From positions 1-29,897 of the IMG/VR virus record IMGVR_UViG_3300047494_000277: a stretch of DNA of 29,897 nt; one strand, 5' to 3'. Shown here piece by piece: positions 1-10,172 of this stretch. How positions within the stretch are numbered: position 1 is the stretch's first letter; each line of letters opens with the position of its first letter. Made by a program: the position numbers and the translations under genes. Below the pieces are notes generated by a model. The model was not told the DNA's origin and did no database searches. It worked only from the letters and a program-made list of their open reading frames with translations. Source of the stretch: a virus.

Positions 1-1260
1 GTGACAAAATTGCAGGCGGTGTCGTTGTTCGCGGGGTGTGGCGGCTTCTGCGAGGGCATGGAGCTTGCGGGGATAGACATCAAGGTCGCCGTCGAGTGGG
101 ACAAGTACTCCTGCGAAACCTACCGGGCGAACTTCCCTCGGACGCCCCTCTTCGAGGGCGATATCCATGATTTCCTTACGGGCACCGGCGCGAAACACCG
201 CAAGGAATACGGCCTGTCGGCGATCGACATCGTGTTCGGCGGCCCACCCTGCCAGGGCTACTCTCAGATTGGACCGCGCGACCTGACGGACGACCGCAAC
301 GAGCTTTACCTTCAGTATGCCCGCATCGTGAGCACACTGAAGCCGCGTATGTTCCTCATGGAGAACGTGCCGAACCTCCTTCTCATGGAGAAGGGCCACT
401 TCCGTGACGCCATCCTCCTGCACTTCGCGAGCATGGGTTACAGCAACACAACGTTCCTGAAGGTGTCGGCTGCCGATTTCGGTGTGCCGCAGACCCGTGA
501 GCGCGTCTTCTTTTTCGGTACACGTGACGACGTCGATCTGCCTGTCGACCTGCGTTCGTATGCCAACGGAGTTCTCGGCAAACTCAAGGTTAAGACGCCT
601 GTGACGGTCTGGGAGGCCATCGGCGATCTGCCGTCCGGGGTCGTCCATAGCGGGCATACGATGCCGTATCCGGCCGCCGTGTCCTTGTCGGATTTCCAGA
701 AGCTCATGCGGCTGGATGAAGGGCAGGCTCCCTACTCGCAGGCGGCCAAGCGGCGCCGCGCTCTCGGAAAATCGGAGGTGGTGCTGCACAACCACCACAC
801 TAAAGAAATGCAGAGCAAGCGGGCGAACCTGATCTCGTTCCTGAAGCCCGGCATGAAAGCCGACTCCTTGCCGAAGGAAATCTGGGACGGCGCGCGGCCG
901 GAGAAATGGCGCCGCCTGCATCCTGATCTCCCGAGCTACACGATCCTAGCCCAGATGCACCGGGATCTGTCGGAGTGGGTGCATCCCAAGCTCGAGCGAT
1001 GGATAACCGTCCGAGAGGCTGCACGCCTGCAATCCTTCCATGACGGCTTTATCTTCAAGTCGTCCGAGTGGCAGATGCTGAAGCAAATTGGTAACGCGGT
1101 TCCGCCTCTTCTAGCGTTCGCCGCGGGTAAGATGGTCACCGCAATCCTTCAGGCAGCCGACGGAAAAGTCATTGCGGACCTTGCACCGGCACAGAAGTCC
1201 CTTCCGATCAAGCTGCCTCCTGCACGCAGCCGCCGTGTCACCTTGGATGCCGTTCTGTGA
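1..1260 (+). CDS. DNA (cytosine-5) methyltransferase, Dcm family
   Basis: Transfers a methyl group from S-adenosylmethionine to C5 of cytosine in DNA. The conserved blocks appear in order: SAM-binding SLFAGCGG near residues 8-15 (motif I), catalytic GGPPCQGYSQ with Cys84 (IV), ENVPN at 121-125 (VI), QTRERVFFFG at 164-173 (VIII), WITVREAARLQSF at 334-346 (IX) and KQIGNAVPP at 361-369 (X). The target-recognition region lies between VIII and IX, about residues 180-330. At 419 aa it has the usual length and all key residues, so it should be active. The reading frame opens with GTG at base 1; upstream sequence is not visible, so a longer N-terminus cannot be excluded, though motif I sits at the normal distance. 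Its stop overlaps the next gene's GTG start by 4 nt (GTGA), implying one operon with the DUF262 and HEPN genes. Its likely role is self-protection for that cassette; the recognition sequence cannot be read off. Confidence 0.95.
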   Translation: MTKLQAVSLFAGCGGFCEGMELAGIDIKVAVEWDKYSCETYRANFPRTPLFEGDIHDFLTGTGAKHRKEYGLSAIDIVFGGPPCQGYSQIGPRDLTDDRNELYLQYARIVSTLKPRMFLMENVPNLLLMEKGHFRDAILLHFASMGYSNTTFLKVSAADFGVPQTRERVFFFGTRDDVDLPVDLRSYANGVLGKLKVKTPVTVWEAIGDLPSGVVHSGHTMPYPAAVSLSDFQKLMRLDEGQAPYSQAAKRRRALGKSEVVLHNHHTKEMQSKRANLISFLKPGMKADSLPKEIWDGARPEKWRRLHPDLPSYTILAQMHRDLSEWVHPKLERWITVREAARLQSFHDGFIFKSSEWQMLKQIGNAVPPLLAFAAGKMVTAILQAADGKVIADLAPAQKSLPIKLPPARSRRVTLDAVL

Positions 1261-2525
1261 GCGGCACCAGCGACGAGGACGATGCCGTTAGCACGCCAGA
1301 TGAGGATGCCGCAGCGGTCTCGGAAGCCACGCCCGAGGCGACCGAGACGGGAGTAGCTGACCAGACGGCTTCCGTCACTTGGTTTGCCGCAGAGCAGGAG
1401 GAAGACGCCTCAGCGTCCTTCAAGGATTACGAGGTCACCGCCAGCCCGAACGACTTCAACATCACCACTATCGTAAACTTCGTGAAGTCGGGCGCGGTCA
1501 AGATTCCGGGGTTTCAGCGGAACTACGTTTGGGACATCAAGCAGGCATCAAGGCTGATCGAGTCCATCCTCATCGGGCTTCCGATCCCACAGATATTCCT
1601 CTACCAGGAAGCCAAGAACAGTTTCCTCGTGGTCGACGGCCAGCAGCGACTGATGTCGATCTATTATTTCGTGGCTGGCCGTTTTCCAAAAACCTCGAAA
1701 AGGCCGATGCTGCGCCGGATCATGGCCGAGAAGGGCCAGCTGCCGGAAGATATCCTCGGTAGCGACGAGTATTTCACGAAATTCAACCTACAGCTTTCTC
1801 CCAAGACAGGTTCGCCGTCACGCTTCCATAAGGTGAATTACCAGACGCTCGGCGAAAACAAGATGGACTTCGACCTCCGGACCATCCGGAACATCGTCAT
1901 CAAGCAGAGTTCGCCGCAGGAAGATCCGGACACCTCGGTTTTCGAGATTTTCAACAGGCTGAACACCGGCGGCGTCAATCTCCGTCCGCAGGAGATCAGG
2001 TCATCTCTCTACCACTCTGACTTCTTGCAGGCCCTTCACCGGGTGAACCTCAATCCGGTCTGGCGGAAGCTGATTGCCCTCCCGGATCCAGACCTCCACG
2101 ACAAAGACATCGAGATCCTATTGCGCGTGTTCGCGCTGGTCGCCGACGGAGATCAGTATGCTGAACCGATGAGCGGGTTCCTGAGTGCGTTCGCTAAGAA
2201 AGCCCGCAAGCTTCCGGCACCCCGGATTGCTTACATGGAGGCTCTTTTCGATGCCTTCTTCACGATGGCGAAGGACATACCGCGGGAGAGCTTCGCGGTC
2301 GCAGAGTCCGGCCGGTTCAACATCGCTGGTTTCGAAGGTATCTTCAGGGCCGCCTGCACCCCCGCGTTCAACGCGAACAACCTGACCGTGGCGCAGCTGA
2401 CCGATGCAAAGGTTCTCGAAGTGCGTTCTGACCCGGGCTTCGTAGCGGCCACACAGGAAAGCGTAGGGCGCACCGCATACGTGAAGCAACGCGTGGTTCG
2501 GGCGATGGCCGTCCTCGGCGTTTAA
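1257..2525 (+). CDS. DUF262 (ParB/GmrS-like N-terminal) domain protein
   Basis: 422-aa protein with a DUF262 domain. Residues 1-58 are an acidic, low-complexity leader. The domain proper starts near 66: KIPGFQRNYVW at 82-92, then DGQQRL at 127-132, the nucleotide-handling motif shared with ParB/sulfiredoxin-fold proteins, then FNRLNTGGVNLRPQEIR at 232-248, a hallmark of the family. The C-terminal third is helical and shows no DUF1524 HNH motif, so unlike GmrSD or SspE it carries no obvious nuclease of its own. It overlaps the methyltransferase stop by 4 nt and is followed 5 nt later by a HEPN gene, which could supply the nuclease. In known DUF262 systems this domain senses or hydrolyses nucleotides and gates a toxic nuclease; that role here is inference. 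The GTG start is set by the coupling overlap, and a start further inside the acidic leader is possible. Confidence 0.88.
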   Translation: MSGTSDEDDAVSTPDEDAAAVSEATPEATETGVADQTASVTWFAAEQEEDASASFKDYEVTASPNDFNITTIVNFVKSGAVKIPGFQRNYVWDIKQASRLIESILIGLPIPQIFLYQEAKNSFLVVDGQQRLMSIYYFVAGRFPKTSKRPMLRRIMAEKGQLPEDILGSDEYFTKFNLQLSPKTGSPSRFHKVNYQTLGENKMDFDLRTIRNIVIKQSSPQEDPDTSVFEIFNRLNTGGVNLRPQEIRSSLYHSDFLQALHRVNLNPVWRKLIALPDPDLHDKDIEILLRVFALVADGDQYAEPMSGFLSAFAKKARKLPAPRIAYMEALFDAFFTMAKDIPRESFAVAESGRFNIAGFEGIFRAACTPAFNANNLTVAQLTDAKVLEVRSDPGFVAATQESVGRTAYVKQRVVRAMAVLGV

Positions 2526-2530
2526 CGTCG

Positions 2531-3118
2531 ATGAGCGTCGAGGCCATTGAGGCGTTCTATCAGGGACACGCTGAACTCATCGAATACCTGATCAAGAACG
2601 GTGAGATCACCTACGCTTCGGACGCCAACGACAATTTCCGGCGATCCCTGATCCTTGCCGTTGCCAGTCATTTCGAGGCCGAGATATCGACGATCGTCCG
2701 CGCTCTGCCTGGGCATCATTCGAAGAACAACCCGATGCTGGTGGCACTCGTGGATCAGAAAGCGGTCTCGCGACAGTACCATACCTATTTTCAGTGGGAC
2801 GGAACGAACGGAAACAGCTTTTTCGCATTGTTCGGACCGGCCTACAGGGCGGCCTGCGTGAAGAAGGTCAAAGATGATACCAAGTTCGACCAGTCGGTTA
2901 GAGCGTTCCTGAGTCTCGGAAGCACCCGAAACCTGATCGTTCACCAGAACTTCGTTGAGTTCTCCGTAGAGAAGACACCCCAGGACATAATTGAGGAGTT
3001 CCGGCGGGCGCAGGAGTTCGTAGATTACGTGCGGGCTTCCCTCCTGCCGCCGTTGCCGGACGAGGGAGAGCCTGTGGTGGTCCCGTCCGAACCAAGCAGC
3101 CCTATAGCAGGTAATTAG
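2531..3118 (+). CDS. HEPN-domain protein (MAE_28990/RiboL-PSP-like), putative RNase
   Basis: 195-aa mostly helical protein. The diagnostic element is R133-N134 followed by L-I-V and H138, the R-x4-H signature of HEPN ribonucleases, set in a helix (STRNLIVHQNF). Residues 1-60 form the first helical pair. The C-terminal 35 residues are proline- and acid-rich and probably disordered. HEPN proteins of this kind act as metal-independent RNases in toxin-antitoxin and abortive-infection systems. It begins 5 nt after the DUF262 stop with only a weak upstream ribosome binding site, so translation is probably coupled. The pairing of a nuclease-less DUF262 protein with a HEPN protein and a methyltransferase suggests a three-part defence module. 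The family subtype is my recognition from the motif, not from a search. Confidence 0.75.
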   Translation: MSVEAIEAFYQGHAELIEYLIKNGEITYASDANDNFRRSLILAVASHFEAEISTIVRALPGHHSKNNPMLVALVDQKAVSRQYHTYFQWDGTNGNSFFALFGPAYRAACVKKVKDDTKFDQSVRAFLSLGSTRNLIVHQNFVEFSVEKTPQDIIEEFRRAQEFVDYVRASLLPPLPDEGEPVVVPSEPSSPIAGN

Positions 3119-3228
3119 CCATCCTCCCGTTCGGCCAGCGTCCGAGAACGTGATTGATAATTCAGCACGGACGCCGAATTCATGGTTCATGCGCCGGGTC
3201 ATACGGCCGCCGCGTTTGCCCTAAACGC

Positions 3229-3279
3229 AAAAAGACCCCGCCCGCCCCGGGGTAACCGGAGCAGGCGGGGTGTCTTTTA
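3229..3279. terminator. Bidirectional intrinsic terminator between the defence cassette and the phage late operon
   Basis: Arms AAAAGACCCCGCC and GGCGGGGTGTCTTTT pair with a two-base bulge, enclosing a GC-rich centre that itself contains CCGG self-complementarity. Read from the left it ends in TCTTTTAT; read from the right it ends in TCTTTTTG, so both converging transcription units can stop here. It lies about 110 nt after the HEPN stop and immediately after the last - strand small reading frame. Confidence 0.85.
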
Positions 3280-3363
3280 TTCGCGGGGATCGTGAGGTCG
3301 GCAGGCCATCCACAGCAGGCGGAAGACCATGACCGCCGCGAGCACGGTGAGGATGGCGGCCAT
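3277..3363 (-). CDS. Predicted 28-aa single-span membrane peptide at the end of the lysis operon
   Basis: Too short for normal gene calling. From the ATG at 3363 it reads 28 codons to TAA at 3277. The product has a hydrophobic stretch (ILTVLAAVMVF, residues 4-14, then RLLWMAC) and a charged, proline-containing tail. A GAAAG element sits about 10 nt upstream as a weak ribosome binding site; a second ATG at 3367 is out of frame with it. It follows the spanin gene by 55 nt and its stop lies inside the terminator stem, so it would be the last gene of the late transcript. It could be an accessory lysis peptide, or a chance reading frame. Confidence 0.35.
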   Translation of the reverse strand: MAAILTVLAAVMVFRLLWMACRPHDPRE

Positions 3364-3385
3364 TCATTTCACTTTCTAATGGATG

Positions 3386-3412
3386 TCGTATGAACTCCAG
3401 GAGTTCACACGA
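3386..3412. repeat. Near-perfect inverted repeat centred on GAACTCC-A-GGAGTTC
   Basis: A 15-bp perfect dyad (3392-3406) is extended outward on both sides by GT(A/G)T. It lies between the Rz1 stop and the 28-aa reading frame. As RNA the loop would be only about 3 nt with no U-tract, so it is not a good terminator. As DNA it looks like a dimeric protein site or a recombination-related site. No function is assigned. Confidence 0.55.
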
Positions 3413-3418
3413 TCGCCA

Positions 3419-3760
3419 TTAACGGGCTGCCGGAAGCGGCGCCTTGGGGTCCACCGGGGTCCGGATGGCTAGATCGTGGAGCGTGTGATCCATGTCGAAG
3501 CAGTCATCGTAGAGCTTGTAGAGGACGGCGATCAGCTTCACGGCCTGATCGGCGTCCAGGTCACCATTCTCCTTGATGATTGCCGTCGGCGTCGGCGGAG
3601 CTACCGGGCATACAAACTGGTCAGCGCTCTCCTTGGTCATCGCAGGCTGAGCTTCCTGGACGACCGTCAGCTTAGGAATATCGAGCTGGCTAGTGCATCC
3701 GGCTACCAAGCAAAGAGCGAGCAGCAGGGGAAAGACGGCAGTTGACTGACGGGTTGGCAT
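3419..3760 (-). CDS. Outer-membrane spanin lipoprotein (Rz1-like)
   Basis: 113-aa lipoprotein beginning at the ATG at 3760. The signal peptide is Lys/Arg-poor but contains an FPLLLALCLVAGC core with a lipobox (LVAGC), predicting cleavage before Cys22 and lipid attachment at the outer membrane. Several prolines follow (APPTPTA), as is usual for o-spanins. The mature part is longer than lambda Rz1. The gene starts inside the 3' end of the i-spanin gene in another frame (71-nt overlap), the classic Rz/Rz1 arrangement. It joins the inner-membrane spanin across the periplasm to fuse the membranes in the last step of lysis. A longer in-frame opening to 3871 exists but would hide the signal peptide, so the internal start is preferred. 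Confidence 0.82.
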   Translation of the reverse strand: MPTRQSTAVFPLLLALCLVAGCTSQLDIPKLTVVQEAQPAMTKESADQFVCPVAPPTPTAIIKENGDLDADQAVKLIAVLYKLYDDCFDMDHTLHDLAIRTPVDPKAPLPAAR

Positions 3761-4125: not shown

Positions 4126-4422
4126 CTAGGAGGCTGGCGGGGCCAGGGATGGCAGGGCGCTGGTCGGAACCGACGTCGCGAGTGCCGCCTGCGCGTCGGC
4201 CAGCTGGAGGTCTTTCCGCGCGCCGGATGCAGAGGCTCCCATCCAGTACGTGCAGACCTGGCAAGCCAGAGTGGCGAGCGTGCCGACGAGGATGTTCGCG
4301 ATCTGCGAGTTGGCCGTCGGGATCGCGGTGGTGACCACGAACAGCACGACGGCCGCGAACGCGATCAGAATGATGGCCGACAGGACGATGGGGCCGTAGG
4401 CGTGCGGGGGCCTCGGGGGCAT
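4126..4422 (-). CDS. Putative holin
   Basis: 98-aa protein with two hydrophobic segments, about residues 11-33 (IVLSAIILIAFAAVVLFVV) and 42-60, the second followed by YWMGASASGARKD. A segment ending in YW-(L/M/F)-G-S/A-S with a basic tail is common in small phage holins of the two-span type. It sits between the endolysin and spanin genes, where a holin is expected, and has a strong AGGAGG site five bases before the ATG. Its job would be to permeabilise the inner membrane on schedule so endolysin can reach the peptidoglycan. The role is inferred from topology and position. Confidence 0.7.
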   Translation of the reverse strand: MPPRPPHAYGPIVLSAIILIAFAAVVLFVVTTAIPTANSQIANILVGTLATLACQVCTYWMGASASGARKDLQLADAQAALATSVPTSALPSLAPPAS

Positions 4423-4437
4423 ATCAGCCTCCTGTGT

Positions 4438-4656
4438 TCAGAGTGATTTCGACGCCGGGGGCCTGCTGTGCTCAGGCGGACGGGCGCAGGCGGACAGCGC
4501 GCTTCTCAGCAGCCCTGCCACCATTTTGTCGGTCGCCAGATCGATCTTTGCCGCCGCCGCATCATCGAGAAGCCTGTGGATCTCGTAGGCACCCGCCAGG
4601 ACGGTAACCATCGGAAGAAGAACCAGGACCACCAGGAGAAACTGGCGCGCCCTCAT
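4438..4656 (-). CDS. Small membrane-anchored lysis-region protein, unknown
   Basis: 72-aa product with an N-terminal signal anchor (FLLVVLVLLPMVTVLAGAY, residues 6-24) and an amphipathic helical remainder with a basic/proline-rich end. Its ATG overlaps the endolysin stop as ATGA (4653-4656), so it is translationally coupled and very probably real. It could be a second small holin, an antiholin or another lysis modulator; nothing in the sequence decides this. The holin candidate follows 16 nt downstream. Confidence 0.6.
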   Translation of the reverse strand: MRARQFLLVVLVLLPMVTVLAGAYEIHRLLDDAAAAKIDLATDKMVAGLLRSALSACARPPEHSRPPASKSL

Positions 4657-5432
4657 GACAGAGCCGCCTTGGCTGCGTTGGCGGCGGCCACGCGCTGGGC
4701 ATAGCCGAGCATAGCGGATCCGTTCACGCCCTTGGTGACGGCTGCAAGGTTCCAGGCTTCCAGCGCAGGTAGCAGCTTGCGGAAGGTGAAATACCAGACG
4801 CCTGACATCGCGGCGCCCTCGACCGTCGTGCAGTAGGTTGCCGCGTCTTCCACGGTCATCCCCATGCTGGCGGCAAACGGCGTGTATTCAGCGCGGCCCG
4901 TGAGCTGCACCAAACCTTTACCGGCGAACCGCCAGCCGTCTCCGGAGGCTTCGTCGCCGTTGCCGAGACGGTTGCTGTAGACGCAGTTCGCCAGCTTCTC
5001 GGGGTTTCCGACGTAGGGGGCGGCTGCTGCTTCATTGGCGAAGTGCGAGGGGAAAACGGCTACGAGGCGGGATGCATGCGTGTAGTTCAGGTTTTCCGAA
5101 ATCTCGGAGAACGCCGACCCGGCTTCCTGTGCAAACTGCCCGAGTTCGCCAGCCACCACGTTTACAGACGTCGAGCCGTAGAAGGCGAACGCCTTATCCA
5201 GCGCGGCCGTCCACGCATCGATCTTGGCAGGCGCAATGTGCGGGGCCGCCGCGAGGATGGCCGCCTCGAGGTTCGGGATGCCGGGCGCTGCGGGTGCCGT
5301 AGCGACATCGGCGACCGGAGCTGGGTCGGCATCCACTGCGCCGGGTGCGGCGTCCGGCGCAGGCTTGGGTGCCGGAACCGGAGCGGCGACCGGGTGAATG
5401 ATGTTGTTGAACCAGGTTACGATGTCGTTCAT
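4653..5432 (-). CDS. Endolysin, GH19 chitinase-like muramidase
   Basis: 259-aa peptidoglycan hydrolase. Residues 17-51 are a proline/alanine-rich linker after a short N-terminal helix. The catalytic domain (about 55-259) has FAQEAG with Glu103 in the place of the GH19 proton donor, a following SENLNYT block (112-118), and GWRFAGKGLVQLTGRAEY (166-183), the strongly conserved GH19 signature. No signal peptide is evident, so export would depend on a holin. The ATG at 5432 is chosen over the GTG at 5441 because a GGAG lies 8 nt before it. It is the first of the tightly linked lysis genes and is coupled to the next by an ATGA overlap. The long Pro/Ala linker before the domain is unusual for a phage endolysin and may be a spacer. 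Confidence 0.85.
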   Translation of the reverse strand: MNDIVTWFNNIIHPVAAPVPAPKPAPDAAPGAVDADPAPVADVATAPAAPGIPNLEAAILAAAPHIAPAKIDAWTAALDKAFAFYGSTSVNVVAGELGQFAQEAGSAFSEISENLNYTHASRLVAVFPSHFANEAAAAPYVGNPEKLANCVYSNRLGNGDEASGDGWRFAGKGLVQLTGRAEYTPFAASMGMTVEDAATYCTTVEGAAMSGVWYFTFRKLLPALEAWNLAAVTKGVNGSAMLGYAQRVAAANAAKAALS

Positions 5433-5454
5433 TGCAGGCACTCCAGAATCAGAA

Positions 5455-5481
5455 AGGGCACCGCCGTTTCCGGGGTGCCCT
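5455..5481 (-). terminator. Stem-loop with GAAA tetraloop upstream of the endolysin gene (possible attenuator)
   Basis: On the - strand, AGGGCACC and GGTGCCCT pair; an inner CCG-GAAA-CGG continues the stem after a one-base bulge and closes with a GNRA loop. TTTCTGATT follows. This looks like a weak intrinsic terminator or processing hairpin placed 23 nt before the endolysin ATG, possibly tuning lysis gene expression. Confidence 0.5.
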
Positions 5482-5512
5482 CATGGGTTGGTCTTCAGTG
5501 GCGGCTGGCGGC

Positions 5513-5731
5513 CTACGTATTTCCGGAAATCCGGTGCGCCGGAGCCGGGAGGCTGTCCTTCAGGGCGTCGATGGTGTCGTGACGGCGCATGCTCCCGTGC
5601 ATCGCTGCGACCAGGCTTGCGGTGATCACGGCGATATCGACGGGCGATAACTCGATCAGAAGCCGCACCTTGTTCACGCTGACCTGCATGATCGCGCCCT
5701 CGGCGACGGGGAATACGTTGATGTCCGCCAT
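5513..5731 (-). CDS. Hypothetical 72-aa phage protein
   Basis: I do not recognise this protein. It has a beta-like N-terminal half (MADINVFPVAEG, then QVSVNKVRLLIEL), a helical middle (DIAVITASLVAAMHGSM) and a basic C-terminus. The ribosome binding site is strong: GGAGG five bases before the ATG at 5731. It lies between the acyltransferase and the endolysin and is transcribed with them. There is no signal peptide and no clear membrane span. Confidence 0.65.
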   Translation of the reverse strand: MADINVFPVAEGAIMQVSVNKVRLLIELSPVDIAVITASLVAAMHGSMRRHDTIDALKDSLPAPAHRISGNT

Positions 5732-5783
5732 GTGTGCCTCCGTAATCCGGCCGTCGGTCGAGGCAGGGGAATCCGTGCCGAAC

Positions 5784-6842
5784 TTAGGCGGCGAGCGGTG
5801 CGGTCGACCGGCGGATGCGGAGGCTGGACAGCTTCATCCCCGGGACTTCGATCCACCTGTGCGTGCAATACGAGATGACTGCTGTGACGGTCAGGTAGAC
5901 CGCGATAGATCCGGTGACCGACATCGATCCTTTGGCCGCCATAGCCGCGCTGAGGACGAGCCAATGAACCAGGTAGACGCTGTAGCTCCGAGCGGAGACC
6001 CAACGAACCAGCGGCCCGACGATGCCGAGGCTTCCCATGCGCAGGGCCGCCGCGACGATAAGGGCGCACCCCGCGGCGGCCGTCGTCAGTGTTCCGGGTT
6101 GCCACTGAGTCGAGGTGCTCAGCATTCCGCAGGCGTAAGGCGCCCATGCAATGGCGATCAGCGAGATCCCGGCGACCAGACAGGCGGCGGGCTTCCGGAA
6201 AAGTGCGGATCCCTGCCGCTCGAGCTGCGCGAGAACGACACCAATGCCGATGCCGTCAATGTTCAACAGGGCGACGTAGTAGGACTGGCTCTGCCCGTAG
6301 GTCAGCCACCGCAGAATAAGCGGGACGACAAGGAAGCAGATGATGACCGGCCAGACTGCGCGTCGTCCGAGGAAACGAGCGGAAACCAGCAGGGTTGTAG
6401 CAAACAGGAGGTAAAACGCTTCCTCAACTGTCAGGCTCCAGCTCGTTCCCATAAAGGCGCCGAGGGCGGAATGCGGGATTGGCGATGTCAGGTTCTGCGT
6501 CATGGTCGCGAACCGTGCGATCTCGGAGATATCCGCGTCAGCGAGGTAAGCCGCGACCGAGAGGATGGCGAAATACAACGGCAGCGTCCGGACCCAGCGG
6601 CGGCACATGAAATTCAGCCAGACGCCCGGGGTAGCGGTGTCGACCAAGTTTAGCAGGATGCGGCCGATAAGGTATCCGCTGAGCGCGTAAAAGGCTTCAA
6701 CGGCGATGCCTCCAAGTGGGAAGACCCATGATGGCGTGCCACCTTCGCCGGTTATCAGGACAGAGGCGTGGAAAAAGACGACGGTCAGCACCGCGACGGC
6801 GCGGATCAGGTCGAGTCCTTGAGAGCGGGTAGATACCTGCAT
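5784..6842 (-). CDS. Acyltransferase 3 family membrane protein (OafA/YrhL-like)
   Basis: 352-aa integral membrane protein with about ten hydrophobic segments. Family features are all present: LDLIRAVAVLTVVFFHA at residues 10-26 with the conserved Arg14 and catalytic His25, FYALSGYLIGR at 51-61, RRWVRTLPLYF at 81-91, and TSWSLTVEEAFYLL at 133-146. These enzymes move acetyl or other acyl groups from the cytoplasm onto O-antigen, exopolysaccharide or peptidoglycan sugars. In prophages they typically alter the host surface and block superinfection (lysogenic conversion), the likely role here. GAGGGA lies about 7 nt before the ATG. It starts 16 nt after the A1-like gene and so probably shares its transcript, rather than having the separate promoter expected of a lysogenic gene. 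Confidence 0.9.
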   Translation of the reverse strand: MQVSTRSQGLDLIRAVAVLTVVFFHASVLITGEGGTPSWVFPLGGIAVEAFYALSGYLIGRILLNLVDTATPGVWLNFMCRRWVRTLPLYFAILSVAAYLADADISEIARFATMTQNLTSPIPHSALGAFMGTSWSLTVEEAFYLLFATTLLVSARFLGRRAVWPVIICFLVVPLILRWLTYGQSQSYYVALLNIDGIGIGVVLAQLERQGSALFRKPAACLVAGISLIAIAWAPYACGMLSTSTQWQPGTLTTAAAGCALIVAAALRMGSLGIVGPLVRWVSARSYSVYLVHWLVLSAAMAAKGSMSVTGSIAVYLTVTAVISYCTHRWIEVPGMKLSSLRIRRSTAPLAA

Positions 6843-6858
6843 GATGCCGTCCCTCGGT

Positions 6859-8643
6859 TCAGGCTGCGACCGAGTAGGCTTTCACGCGGATACGGGGCCT
6901 CTCGACCATGTGGTTATCGTTCTTCGTGGCTCTCCACTTCGGACCGCGCATCGTGACAATTGCCCGTTTTCCATTCGGGTAAGTGATCACCAGGCTGTGG
7001 GACCAAGACGACGGGCCGCGGTTGTAGGTCATGTCGAGATCTCCGGAGACGCCGGACGACATGTTGCCTCCCCAGATACCTGCTGCGTGGGTGTGAGCTG
7101 AGATCGTCCGCATACCGATGACGCGGTATCCTTTGGTCGATCCGCGGCTCCCGTTGACGCCCCGGTGACCGTGCAAGGAGTTCTCAATCCCGCCGCTCTC
7201 CGGGCAGGTGATGAAGGACTCGTCCTCCCGCAGGAACCGGACGCTACCCAGCGCGGGCGCCTTTTCGCGGACGGCGGCCTCGAACGGCAGGAACTCCGCG
7301 CCGCTCTCGATGGACTGGAATATCTTGTAGTTCCAGTAGTGCCAGTAACGCTGGTTGCCCCTGTCCTTGTGGCCTTCCGCGCGCTCGAGCCATGTCATGA
7401 AAGCCTGATCATGATTGCTCTCGACCACGACGGTCTGGCACCACGGACGGGTCGCCGACTGTAGGAAGGCGGCGCACTGCTCCATGCCCTCCTCGACGCT
7501 CTCGTCCCGCTTGGCGTATTGCCGTGCAAGGAAATACGGGCTGTCGACGTTGTGGTGATTACGCACCGTGAAGTCTGTCAGGTCATGGATGAACTGGTAT
7601 TTCGGCTTCAGCGCATCGAGCATTCCGCCCGGAGCCCAGATCGCATCTTCCAGCGCGCGGTCCGTGAACTTCTCCCGGTGGATGTCGCCCGGCGTGATCG
7701 CCTCGATGTGTGAGGCATGCGATCCGGTCGGGGTGTAGACGCGGTCCAGATCCTGAAAGCAGCCGTCGGAGGTCGCGTTGATCTGCCGGACGAACCAGGA
7801 TCCGTCCTCCTCCACTTCTACGACCAGGGCGCCGAGGATGTGGTGATGTTCGGCTTTCTGCCCGGCTTTGCGGGGGATGTAGTTCGACAGGGTGACTGCG
7901 CCGGTGGTGTAGAGGAACCGCGCCGCGGAACCCTTCATCGACGCCATCGGCCGCATTTCGTGCTTGGTGTGTCCAAAGATCCCGGAAGATGTCTTGGTGA
8001 AGGATTCCAGCCCGGATAGAGGGTCGACCGCGCTCGGCGAGATGTTCATGTCGGCGCAGAGCACGAGGTCCGGAGCCAGTCTGATTGTGCCGGTGACCAC
8101 GTTTCCTTGGATGGCGGGATCGTACCAGCTGCTCTCGCCCTCGACGAGAACCTCGTGCGGCTTGCCGTAGGCGTTGGCGTTGTAGGAACAGCGGACCACC
8201 AGCAGCCGGGCATTGCGCTCCGCCTGATAGGTCGCCATCGATGCCAGGAAGTCGGCATGAACGAAGGTGTTGTTCTGGGCCAGGGCGACCAGGTAGACGC
8301 CCGACTTGCCGACCCTGATCTCGCGGGCCTCAGGAGCCTCGTATGTGCCGCCTGCGACGGGCTTCTCAGGCTTCGGTGCCTTCTCGGTCTTCGCGGTCTG
8401 CGGCGATCCCTCAAGGACCGGAGCTTTCGGCCCGGTCAGCAGGGCAGCGATCATCCTCTGGCTTTCCACCAGCGAGGCCATCATCTCCTCGACCGTCGAA
8501 GTCTTCGGTGTGATCGGCGCGACTTTCTTGTATCGCTTGAAGAATGTCGTCTTGGCCATCCCGGCCGCCGCTGCCGCTGCGCTTATCGTGCCGTGCGTCT
8601 TGACGAGAGCCGCGTAGTCTATGCTTTCAGTGGCATCCCGCAT
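6859..8643 (-). CDS. Phage T5 A1-like protein: calcineurin-type metallophosphoesterase with N-terminal helix-turn-helix
   Basis: 594-aa protein. Residues 15-40 (GTISAAAAAAGMAKTTFFKRY) read as a helix-turn-helix of the kind that matches non-identical DNA. A disordered Lys/Pro stretch follows at 70-100. The large C-terminal domain carries metallophosphoesterase motifs in order: GDIH (D320, H322), HDLTD (D354/D357), SNHD (N410, H411, D412), HGHRG (H491-H493) and SAHTH (H517, H519). That order fits a two-metal nuclease/phosphatase of the calcineurin fold. The layout resembles the A1 protein of phage T5, which is needed for host DNA degradation and for completing DNA entry; this assignment is from memory of the family, not a search. 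GGAG lies 9 nt before the ATG. A regulatory gap of 129 nt precedes the gene, and the acyltransferase follows 16 nt after it. Confidence 0.72.
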   Translation of the reverse strand: MRDATESIDYAALVKTHGTISAAAAAAGMAKTTFFKRYKKVAPITPKTSTVEEMMASLVESQRMIAALLTGPKAPVLEGSPQTAKTEKAPKPEKPVAGGTYEAPEAREIRVGKSGVYLVALAQNNTFVHADFLASMATYQAERNARLLVVRCSYNANAYGKPHEVLVEGESSWYDPAIQGNVVTGTIRLAPDLVLCADMNISPSAVDPLSGLESFTKTSSGIFGHTKHEMRPMASMKGSAARFLYTTGAVTLSNYIPRKAGQKAEHHHILGALVVEVEEDGSWFVRQINATSDGCFQDLDRVYTPTGSHASHIEAITPGDIHREKFTDRALEDAIWAPGGMLDALKPKYQFIHDLTDFTVRNHHNVDSPYFLARQYAKRDESVEEGMEQCAAFLQSATRPWCQTVVVESNHDQAFMTWLERAEGHKDRGNQRYWHYWNYKIFQSIESGAEFLPFEAAVREKAPALGSVRFLREDESFITCPESGGIENSLHGHRGVNGSRGSTKGYRVIGMRTISAHTHAAGIWGGNMSSGVSGDLDMTYNRGPSSWSHSLVITYPNGKRAIVTMRGPKWRATKNDNHMVERPRIRVKAYSVAA

Positions 8644-8700
8644 TTCCAGGCACTCCGTAGTCCGAGAGTGCGATTAAATCACTGCTCCGAAACAAAAACC

Positions 8701-8782
8701 TAGCAACTCGAAGCATTTGTAAACGCATTACTTTTGAAAGCTTGCGTTTCGCAGTCAAAAGCGATGTTTCGTTTACAATCCG
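8701..8782 (-). promoter_or_regulatory. AT-rich, dyad-rich control region upstream of the A1-like gene
   Basis: This gap is visibly more AT-rich than its surroundings. TTGTAAACG (8717-8725) is answered by CGTTTACAA (8770-8778), and a nested pair AAACGCA (8721-8727) / TGCGTTT (8743-8749) lies inside. CTTTTGA-type blocks also recur on both sides. TTGACT on the - strand (8753-8758) could be a -35 element, but no convincing -10 is spaced correctly. The structure suggests an operator or promoter controlling the A1-like gene and acyltransferase separately from the tail operon. Confidence 0.45.
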
Positions 8783-9393
8783 TCTGGATTTCCCGCTGTG
8801 CCGGTTGTCGAGACGCTTCCGCTGGCGACGACGGTGAAGGGGATATCCGGGAAATCGAACCGGAGCGGCCACCAGGAGCCGTCGCGGAAGACCCCGTATC
8901 TGTGGATCTTGTAGCTGCCGGGTGCTGCGTCCGCCGGGAGCGACAGGAATGCGAACAGATGCCCGCATCTGTGGGCATCACCAGAAAAATGGGAGATCCG
9001 AGAGACGACAGCGGTATCCTGCGCCCCGTGGTCTTCCACATGCACCAGGCTGACGTGCGCGGTGTAGGCGGCCCCGGCGTCGGCGCAGAAGGATGCCTCC
9101 CAGCCTACACGGTCGGCGGCGTGAAACACCGTCTCCAAATGTCCTTCGACAGGCTTCCCCTCGGCGTCCTCCACTACCGTCAGCGGCGCAATCACGCCGT
9201 CGGAGGCGGAGTAATACCTCACGTCGAAATACCTCAACCGGAGAGCGTTGTATCCGGTTAGGACCGTCGTCAGAAAGAAGAAGATCGTCGAGAAACGCTT
9301 GAAATCGGCCCAGGCGCGCGCAACCACGACTTGCCTGACCGACAGGGGCATCGACTGTATTTCAGTCGCCCTGCGCTGCTGATTTCCACTCAT
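8773..9393 (-). CDS. Membrane-anchored protein with exported beta-rich domain, unknown
   Basis: 206-aa protein I do not recognise. A basic N-terminus is followed by one hydrophobic segment at about residues 34-51 (FSTIFFFLTTVLTGYNAL). The remainder (52-206) is rich in beta-type sequence with regular aromatic residues and two cysteines, and probably faces the periplasm. The ATG at 9393 overlaps the stop of the preceding gene (ATGA), with AGGA about 9 nt upstream. It lies in the pocket of small unknowns between the tail fibres and the A1-like gene, where phages often keep host-interaction genes. A superinfection-exclusion role is possible but unsupported by motif. Confidence 0.6.
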   Translation of the reverse strand: MSGNQQRRATEIQSMPLSVRQVVVARAWADFKRFSTIFFFLTTVLTGYNALRLRYFDVRYYSASDGVIAPLTVVEDAEGKPVEGHLETVFHAADRVGWEASFCADAGAAYTAHVSLVHVEDHGAQDTAVVSRISHFSGDAHRCGHLFAFLSLPADAAPGSYKIHRYGVFRDGSWWPLRFDFPDIPFTVVASGSVSTTGTAGNPDGL

Positions 9394-9737
9394 TCGAAAA
9401 GGTCCTTAACGGCGTCTACCAGGAGACTTGTGTGAAGCAGCAGCTGCGCCCCGGCGTAGCCAAGGCCGAGCCTCCACAGCCATTTGCATAGGTGCTCGAT
9501 GAGGTGACGCTTGATTGTCGCCCACGCGGCCGCTTTGGCGGTCGCCGACGCCGCGCGGACTTCCGCCAGGACGCGGAGCACAACCGCATCGGGCAACGTT
9601 CCGAGAGCGGTGTCCGTGCGGGTGGAAAGCATCTCAAGAACACCGGCGATCCGATCCAGCCGAACAATCAGTGCATGGAGTTCTTCCCGCAGAGGACGCA
9701 TGTCGTCCGTCGCGGCACGGGCAAACGGGTTTTTCAT
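9390..9737 (-). CDS. Hypothetical 115-aa protein with helical stalk and C-terminal hydrophobic segment
   Basis: I do not recognise it. Residues 14-75 form a long amphipathic helix or coiled coil (leucine, valine and alanine heptads). Residues 84-108 are hydrophobic and tryptophan-rich (CKWLWRLGLGYAGAQLLL) and may insert in the membrane. Its stop overlaps the next gene's ATG by ATGA, so the two are translated together and may form one membrane complex. There is only a weak ribosome binding site before the ATG at 9737. Confidence 0.55.
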   Translation of the reverse strand: MKNPFARAATDDMRPLREELHALIVRLDRIAGVLEMLSTRTDTALGTLPDAVVLRVLAEVRAASATAKAAAWATIKRHLIEHLCKWLWRLGLGYAGAQLLLHTSLLVDAVKDLFE

Positions 9738-9796
9738 TTGGTCACCGGGTAAATTATGGGTGGCCGGGATGCGCCCGGTGGCAGCACGCCTGCGGA

Positions 9797-9931
9797 CTAC
9801 AGGGAGCCGGTCCGCAGGATTGGTAGTAACTCGATGACCAGGACGCCGATCAGGATGGCGGCGATCAGGAACCGGATGACCGGCCCGAAGGCGTTCGGAT
9901 CATCCTCGGGCCTTGGGGACCGCTTAGACAT
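9797..9931 (-). CDS. 44-aa single-span membrane peptide
   Basis: This short gene reads from the ATG at 9931 to TAG at 9797. The product has a charged start (MSKRSPRPEDD), a membrane span at about residues 19-39 (IRFLIAAILIGVLVIELLPI) and a short tail. Its ATG overlaps the stop of the preceding 82-aa gene by 8 nt (ATGTCTAA), the same coupling seen between neighbours. Size and topology fit a pinholin, a holin regulator or another small membrane protein, but nothing decides which. Confidence 0.55.
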   Translation of the reverse strand: MSKRSPRPEDDPNAFGPVIRFLIAAILIGVLVIELLPILRTGSL

Positions 9932-10172
9932 CTTTGGCGACGACAGCGACCACGGCGGCGACTGCCACGGCGGCGGTCAACTCCGGGGCGACGACAACCG
10001 CCACGACGGTGGCACCTGCGGCCTCCGCAGGGTGGGCTTCAACTTCGGAGATGGCCTTGGCCTCGAGGGTATCCGCCTCGGCGACGACTTCGGACTTCGA
10101 CAGGCCGAGTTCCTTCTCGACGAAGGCTTCGATTGCGACGAGGTCGGCTTTGATGGTGGAGAGAACGGTCAT
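9924..10172 (-). CDS. Hypothetical 82-aa protein with helical head and Ala/Val-rich hydrophobic tail
   Basis: I do not recognise it. Residues 1-50 are an acidic amphipathic helix region. Residues 53-80 consist almost wholly of Ala, Val and Thr (ATVVAVVVAP and onward), hydrophobic enough to be a tail anchor. AAGGAA lies 8 nt before the ATG at 10172, a good ribosome binding site. The stop overlaps the 44-aa membrane peptide's start. Phages of related type often carry small Ala/Val-rich proteins near the tail-fibre end of the operon. Confidence 0.55.
   Translation of the reverse strand: MTVLSTIKADLVAIEAFVEKELGLSKSEVVAEADTLEAKAISEVEAHPAEAAGATVVAVVVAPELTAAVAVAAVVAVVAKDV

Follow-up and report, generated by a model that had tools for sequence, protein, structure and literature searches.

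The question raised by this locus is whether a DNA methyltransferase, a DUF262 protein and a HEPN protein, encoded one behind the other at the edge of a virus record and beside phage late genes, form a single new defence machine or a junction of two modules of kinds already known. The whole stretch of DNA analysed, here called the window, is this virus record of 29,897 bases. The cassette is two known kinds of module joined, not one new machine. We consider it probable that a PD-T4-2-like DUF262–HEPN module stands behind, and overlaps, the methyltransferase of a type II restriction–modification (R-M) system of the Cfr10I/Bse634I kind, that the whole is phage cargo, and that restriction–modification acts first with the HEPN protein as backup. 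The features on which the argument rests are the following:

1–1260, plus strand: C5-cytosine DNA methyltransferase (MTase), 419 aa, GTG start at the contig edge (PF00145, 5e-64)
1257–2525, plus strand: DUF262 (GmrSD_N, ParB/Srx-type fold) NTPase-like protein, 422 aa (PF03235, 5e-32)
2531–3118, plus strand: predicted RNase of the HEPN_RiboL-PSP family, 195 aa (PF18735, 8e-16), with R133-N-x3-H138
3223–3422, no strand assigned: block common to a related phage (85% identical to L084 15459–15261), with a terminator between the cassette and the late operon
Rest of the window, minus strand: late-operon genes for endolysin, DNA transfer protein, tail fibre, baseplate, sheath, head protease and major head protein

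The MTase and DUF262 genes overlap by four bases (GTGA), and the HEPN gene starts five bases past the DUF262 stop codon, in agreement with the preliminary description of three genes that overlap or nearly do so. Its gene identities, namely an intact C5 MTase, a DUF262 protein with DGQQR but without DUF1524, and a HEPN protein with R-N-x3-H, are likewise borne out by the Pfam matches and the motifs. The C5 DNA methylase match covers profile positions 2–320 of 324, and the MTase motifs are complete (F10xGCGG, P83-C84-Q85, E121NV and QIGNAVPP). The GmrSD_N/DUF262 match spans residues 70–252; Pfam matched no second domain in any of the three cassette proteins, hence DUF1524 is absent. The cassette, conserved motifs included, is far beyond chance.

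In the DUF262 protein, the motifs QR (87–88), DGQQR (127–131) and FxxxN (232–236) show no variation in 47 non-redundant relatives; in DUF262 defence proteins these motifs are tied to NTP use (PMC12137116). The AlphaFold (AF2) model (pLDDT 84) is disordered over the first ~55 residues and contains solely helices after about residue 226, and the betabetaalpha nuclease fold of DUF1524 was not found in it. When the model was compared with the PDB by Foldseek, BrxU and ParB led the list, weakly, with no match below 0.001. In the HEPN protein, E49, Y83, R133 and H138 are invariant in 50 non-redundant relatives, and the AF2 model (pLDDT 93) is all-helical. An Rx4-6H motif within an all-helical fold is what a HEPN RNase would be expected to have, so RNase activity is predicted from the sequence and the model. 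A phmmer search of the PDB with this protein hit nothing but designed ankyrin proteins, which have no relationship to HEPN, over ~25 residues, and a Foldseek search of the PDB with its model gave no match below 0.001, HEPN entries appearing solely amid noise.

The conservation of the DUF262–HEPN pair was examined by scanning 84,980 prokaryote genomes with an alignment of five HEPN relatives, which yielded 46 confirmed loci. It should be noted that all but one of the five seeds already came from such pairs and that the pattern QYH[TA][LY]F[DQN]W limits the scan to this HEPN subfamily; the association with DUF262 was nevertheless not built into the scan, whose seeds were HEPN proteins alone. In 44 of the 46 loci, which are spread over many phyla, the gene immediately 5′ of HEPN encodes a DUF262 protein, mostly at a distance of a few bases. 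Every pair locus examined on viruses and plasmids showed the same arrangement, often with overlapping genes; it was seen in E. coli prophage contigs, the Akkermansia phage Chambord, and plasmids of Exiguobacterium, E. coli and Kocuria. In the viral contigs, a search with the single HEPN protein confirmed nothing and the alignment-based search succeeded. These data support DUF262 plus HEPN as a conserved two-gene unit.

Several neighbourhoods deserve mention in their own right. The E. coli prophage contigs (L007, 5077–7738) hold the pair as a lone insert amid phage genes, with no MTase. On the E. coli plasmid (L012, 2975–5593), a PemIK toxin–antitoxin pair lies immediately 5′ of a distant DUF262–HEPN pair. 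DUF262 genes about 35% identical to that of the window also occur on numerous plasmids of Salmonella and E. coli.

Such a pair has a characterised counterpart. PD-T4-2 consists of a DUF262 protein and a PF18735 HEPN protein (PMC10952713), and its removal from the native strain greatly increased T4 plaquing (Vassallo et al. 2022, PMC9519451). The window resembles it in that a DUF262 protein without DUF1524 matches the PADLOC profile PD-T4-2_A over its full length (2.9e-34) and is directly adjacent to a PF18735-type HEPN protein. It differs in that the DUF262 protein scores higher against NsnA (7.5e-49), the HEPN protein falls below the threshold of the PADLOC profile PD-T4-2_B and gives no match, and an R-M MTase is attached. 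We therefore class the pair as PD-T4-2-like rather than as PD-T4-2; in favour of the kinship, PD-T4-2_B does match 17 of 45 HEPN relatives (best value, 7e-7). Judged by these profile comparisons, the pair is a divergent relative of PD-T4-2; a search of 149 Enterobacteriaceae genomes with PD-T4-2_B supplied no authentic PD-T4-2 for comparison.

This relationship bears on the earlier proposal that the nuclease role had passed from the DUF262 polypeptide to a separate HEPN RNase. Such a shift can fairly be inferred, as the DUF262 protein lacks DUF1524 and the HEPN protein beside it has invariant catalytic residues; it is not new, because both the composition of PD-T4-2 and the 2013 listing of RiboL-PSP-HEPN in an "operon with ParB" (Anantharaman et al. 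2013, PMC3710099) precede it. Table 1 of the same paper lists MAE_28990 HEPN operons with a ParB nuclease and a DNA methylase, so an operon combining these three kinds of gene was already on record at that time, but the window HEPN belongs to the RiboL-PSP family (PF18735) and not to MAE_28990.

Two other known systems share the DUF262 component. The window protein matches the NsnA profile of Menshen (NsnABC) along its length, but Menshen is described with an OLD-family nuclease (PMC10952713), and by the PADLOC profiles and that description the visible neighbours are instead the MTase, the HEPN partner and phage late genes, with no OLD-family nuclease gene in the visible DNA. GmrSD, BrxU and SspE, the type IV and phosphorothioate-sensing DUF262–DUF1524 nucleases, have in common with the window a DUF262 domain with DGQQR, and for BrxU also the weak fold match; in the window, however, neither Pfam nor the AF2 model reveals the DUF1524 nuclease that together with DUF262 defines GmrSD type IV systems, and the effector is a separate predicted RNase.

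The relation of the MTase to the pair is of a different nature. Ten of the 46 genome loci have a C5 MTase no more than 4 kb away from the pair, and none was found at 4–8 kb in the fetched DNA, some loci being shortened by contig ends; this difference shows that the clustering is real though optional. The fetched flanks of the other 36 pairs contain no C5 MTase. The co-occurrence check of the three families suggested in the preliminary description thus gives a divided answer, strong for the DUF262–HEPN pair and only occasional for the MTase. The pair-associated MTases belong to several families, with ~25–37% mutual identity apart from near relatives, and are accompanied by endonucleases of the EcoO109I, BpuJI, NaeI or Cfr10I/Bse634I types, or by Vsr. 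On the DUF262 tree, the presence of an MTase changes 7 times, at least 4 of these changes being forced by well-supported branches, which indicates that the association was gained or lost repeatedly.

For the window MTase, the relatives are informative. In three of the four with visible upstream DNA, a divergent Cfr10I/Bse634I-type endonuclease gene lies 5′ of the MTase. The closest relative, L016, carries in a row a Vsr-like gene, the divergent Cfr10I/Bse634I endonuclease, the MTase (69% identity), DUF262 (65%) and HEPN (51%). The same divergent endonuclease is found in L097 (MTase 68%) and in the Clavibacter plasmid L099 (MTase 53.5%), neither of which has a DUF262–HEPN pair, and the fourth relative, L098, has neither the endonuclease nor the pair. 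Pfam confirms the Vsr of L090, and the Vsr-like genes in L016 and L097 were assigned by visual comparison with it. From these comparisons, a Cfr10I/Bse634I-type R-M system is the probable source of the window MTase, which would be its modification half: it is 53–69% identical to the MTases of L016, L097 and L099. The window departs from a plain system of this type in the DUF262–HEPN pair added downstream and in the endonuclease, which it does not contain. Base 1 of the window is the GTG start of the MTase, and all DNA 5′ of it is unseen; the predicted endonuclease would therefore be off the edge, and we infer that it, and perhaps Vsr too, lies just beyond the left end of the contig. A search of viral contigs with the L016 endonuclease as query found no relative.

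Cfr10I and Bse634I cut R|CCGGY (PMC6344858), and avoidance of this site by the phage was considered. RCCGGY occurs 58 times against 80.5 expected, which is slightly low, but the other three CCGG flank classes are low too, and we do not count this as evidence. As a separate observation, an MTase 58% identical to that of the window (L073, 1–1236) likewise starts exactly at the edge of a virus record, which fits trimming of proviruses at gene boundaries.

These findings allow the alternatives concerning function to be weighed. The preliminary description had proposed that the three genes are one system in which methylation marks self DNA; in its full form, the MTase marks self and the DUF262 protein gates the HEPN RNase according to whether it detects methylation, so that the whole is an RNase version of restriction–modification. 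In favour of this, the genes overlap in the window, the DUF262 proteins BrxU and SspE are readers of modified DNA (PMC10952713), and in a separate clade (L010 3727–6537, L030 5742–8537 and L038 3500–6309, from an Akkermansia phage and two MAGs, of Kiritimatiellota and of Clostridiales) a single MTase family is retained directly upstream of the pair, with parallel identities of the three proteins (MTase 64–76%, DUF262 75–82%, HEPN 67–73%), no endonuclease being annotated beside the MTase of the Akkermansia phage. Against it, most pairs have no C5 MTase in their fetched flanks, the partner MTases come from several families, and the family of the window MTase occurs with Cfr10I/Bse634I endonucleases where the pair is missing. 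We thus regard a single three-gene system as unlikely for the window, and its MTase family's going with that endonuclease in three of four relatives, two of them without the pair, speaks against an MTase dedicated to the cassette. Slightly more doubtful is the specific mechanism of a methylation-gated RNase, in which the DUF262 protein would read the C5 methylation of its own operon and restrain or release HEPN, giving an R-M effector that cuts RNA rather than DNA. On sequence comparison, the Akkermansia phage, Kiritimatiellota and Clostridiales clade is the most promising place for a genuine three-gene system and motivates such gating better than the window does.

Alternatively, the pair could be a toxin–antitoxin module for maintenance, in which DUF262 neutralises a HEPN toxin and there is no dedicated sensing of phages. 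The small size of the two genes, their overlap or adjacency and their presence on plasmids, prophages and islands would suit such a role, and HEPN proteins are frequently toxins (PMC3710099). Yet the invariant QR, DGQQR and FxxxN motifs of DUF262, linked to NTP use in defence proteins (PMC12137116), the nature of the nearest characterised relative, PD-T4-2, as a phage-defence system, and the clustering of R-M genes around the pair all speak for defence, and we find this reading improbable, the least likely of those considered here.

The remaining question concerns location. As the preliminary description had it, the cassette adjoins a phage late operon: the recognised genes in the rest of the window lie on the minus strand and belong to the late operon of a contractile-tail phage. 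Between the two is a terminator stem of 16 pairs (3235–3271) with a T-run on each side, that is, on both strands. The virus record L084/G536, 34 kb long, shows 91% identity to the window across positions 4282–10160. Directly past the same terminator block, where the window has the cassette, this record encodes a ParB-like protein, a PAPS reductase, an SNF2 helicase and others; like the cassette genes, these are convergent with the late operon. Since late operon and terminator are common to both while the genes at that place differ, the position is probably exchangeable, and the cassette is probably exchangeable phage cargo sharing the terminator.

It is also conceivable, though doubtful, that the three genes are host chromosomal genes at a prophage boundary and not phage cargo, a reading that concerns location only and fits any mechanism. 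The end of a late operon often adjoins the attachment site. The record starts exactly at a gene start, as we would expect of trimmed proviruses in IMG/VR, and L016 has the same cassette in a chromosome near GMP synthase. On the other side, the 91%-identical phage runs past the same terminator into phage-type genes rather than an integrase or host genes, which makes the cassette junction internal to at least one phage of this group. No integrase was identified among the genes scanned in the window record or L084/G536, and for this reason an origin at a prophage edge keeps some probability.

Taken together, the data are best explained by a PD-T4-2-like pair joined to a Cfr10I/Bse634I-type R-M system, for which we propose the following course of events. 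The R-M pair would first restrict unmodified DNA. The DUF262 protein, most likely an NTP-driven sensor by analogy with its relatives (PMC10952713, PMC12137116), would form a complex with HEPN and sense a DNA state associated with infection, and its binding or hydrolysis of NTP would free or activate the HEPN RNase. The latter would then cut cellular RNA and halt the cell, providing an abortive backup against phages that escape restriction. Counting against this explanation are the four-base overlap of the MTase and DUF262 genes and the stable triple of the second clade, which leave room for a dedicated MTase; the lack of a PD-T4-2_B match, the position of the endonuclease outside the window, its lack in L098 and the weak Foldseek matches also weigh against it.

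The DUF262–HEPN pair is a widespread, sequence-conserved module, present in many bacterial phyla, in an ANME-2 archaeon and in phages, of which PD-T4-2 is the only tested example that we found. Such pairs have repeatedly become attached to diverse type II R-M systems, and the novelty here is that a PD-T4-2-like pair is closely linked to type II R-M, several times independently. Whether the pair acts alone, as a backup to failed restriction, or by reading the mark of the MTase is now a testable question. The locus also carries a warning: where an MTase adjoins a defence pair at the end of a contig, it may come from a truncated R-M system.

Two further observations concern the phage records themselves. 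At the far end of the L084/G536 record (L090, 1–4007; G536:C1), an R-M-like group comprises an AAA_15 ATPase, Vsr, a 295-aa protein and a C5 MTase; the 295-aa protein has no clear family match and is possibly the endonuclease. Within the late operon of the window, at positions 5784–6842 on the minus strand, lies a gene for an O-acetyltransferase (Acyl_transf_3, phrog_3333), also present in L084, which is a possible serotype-conversion gene.
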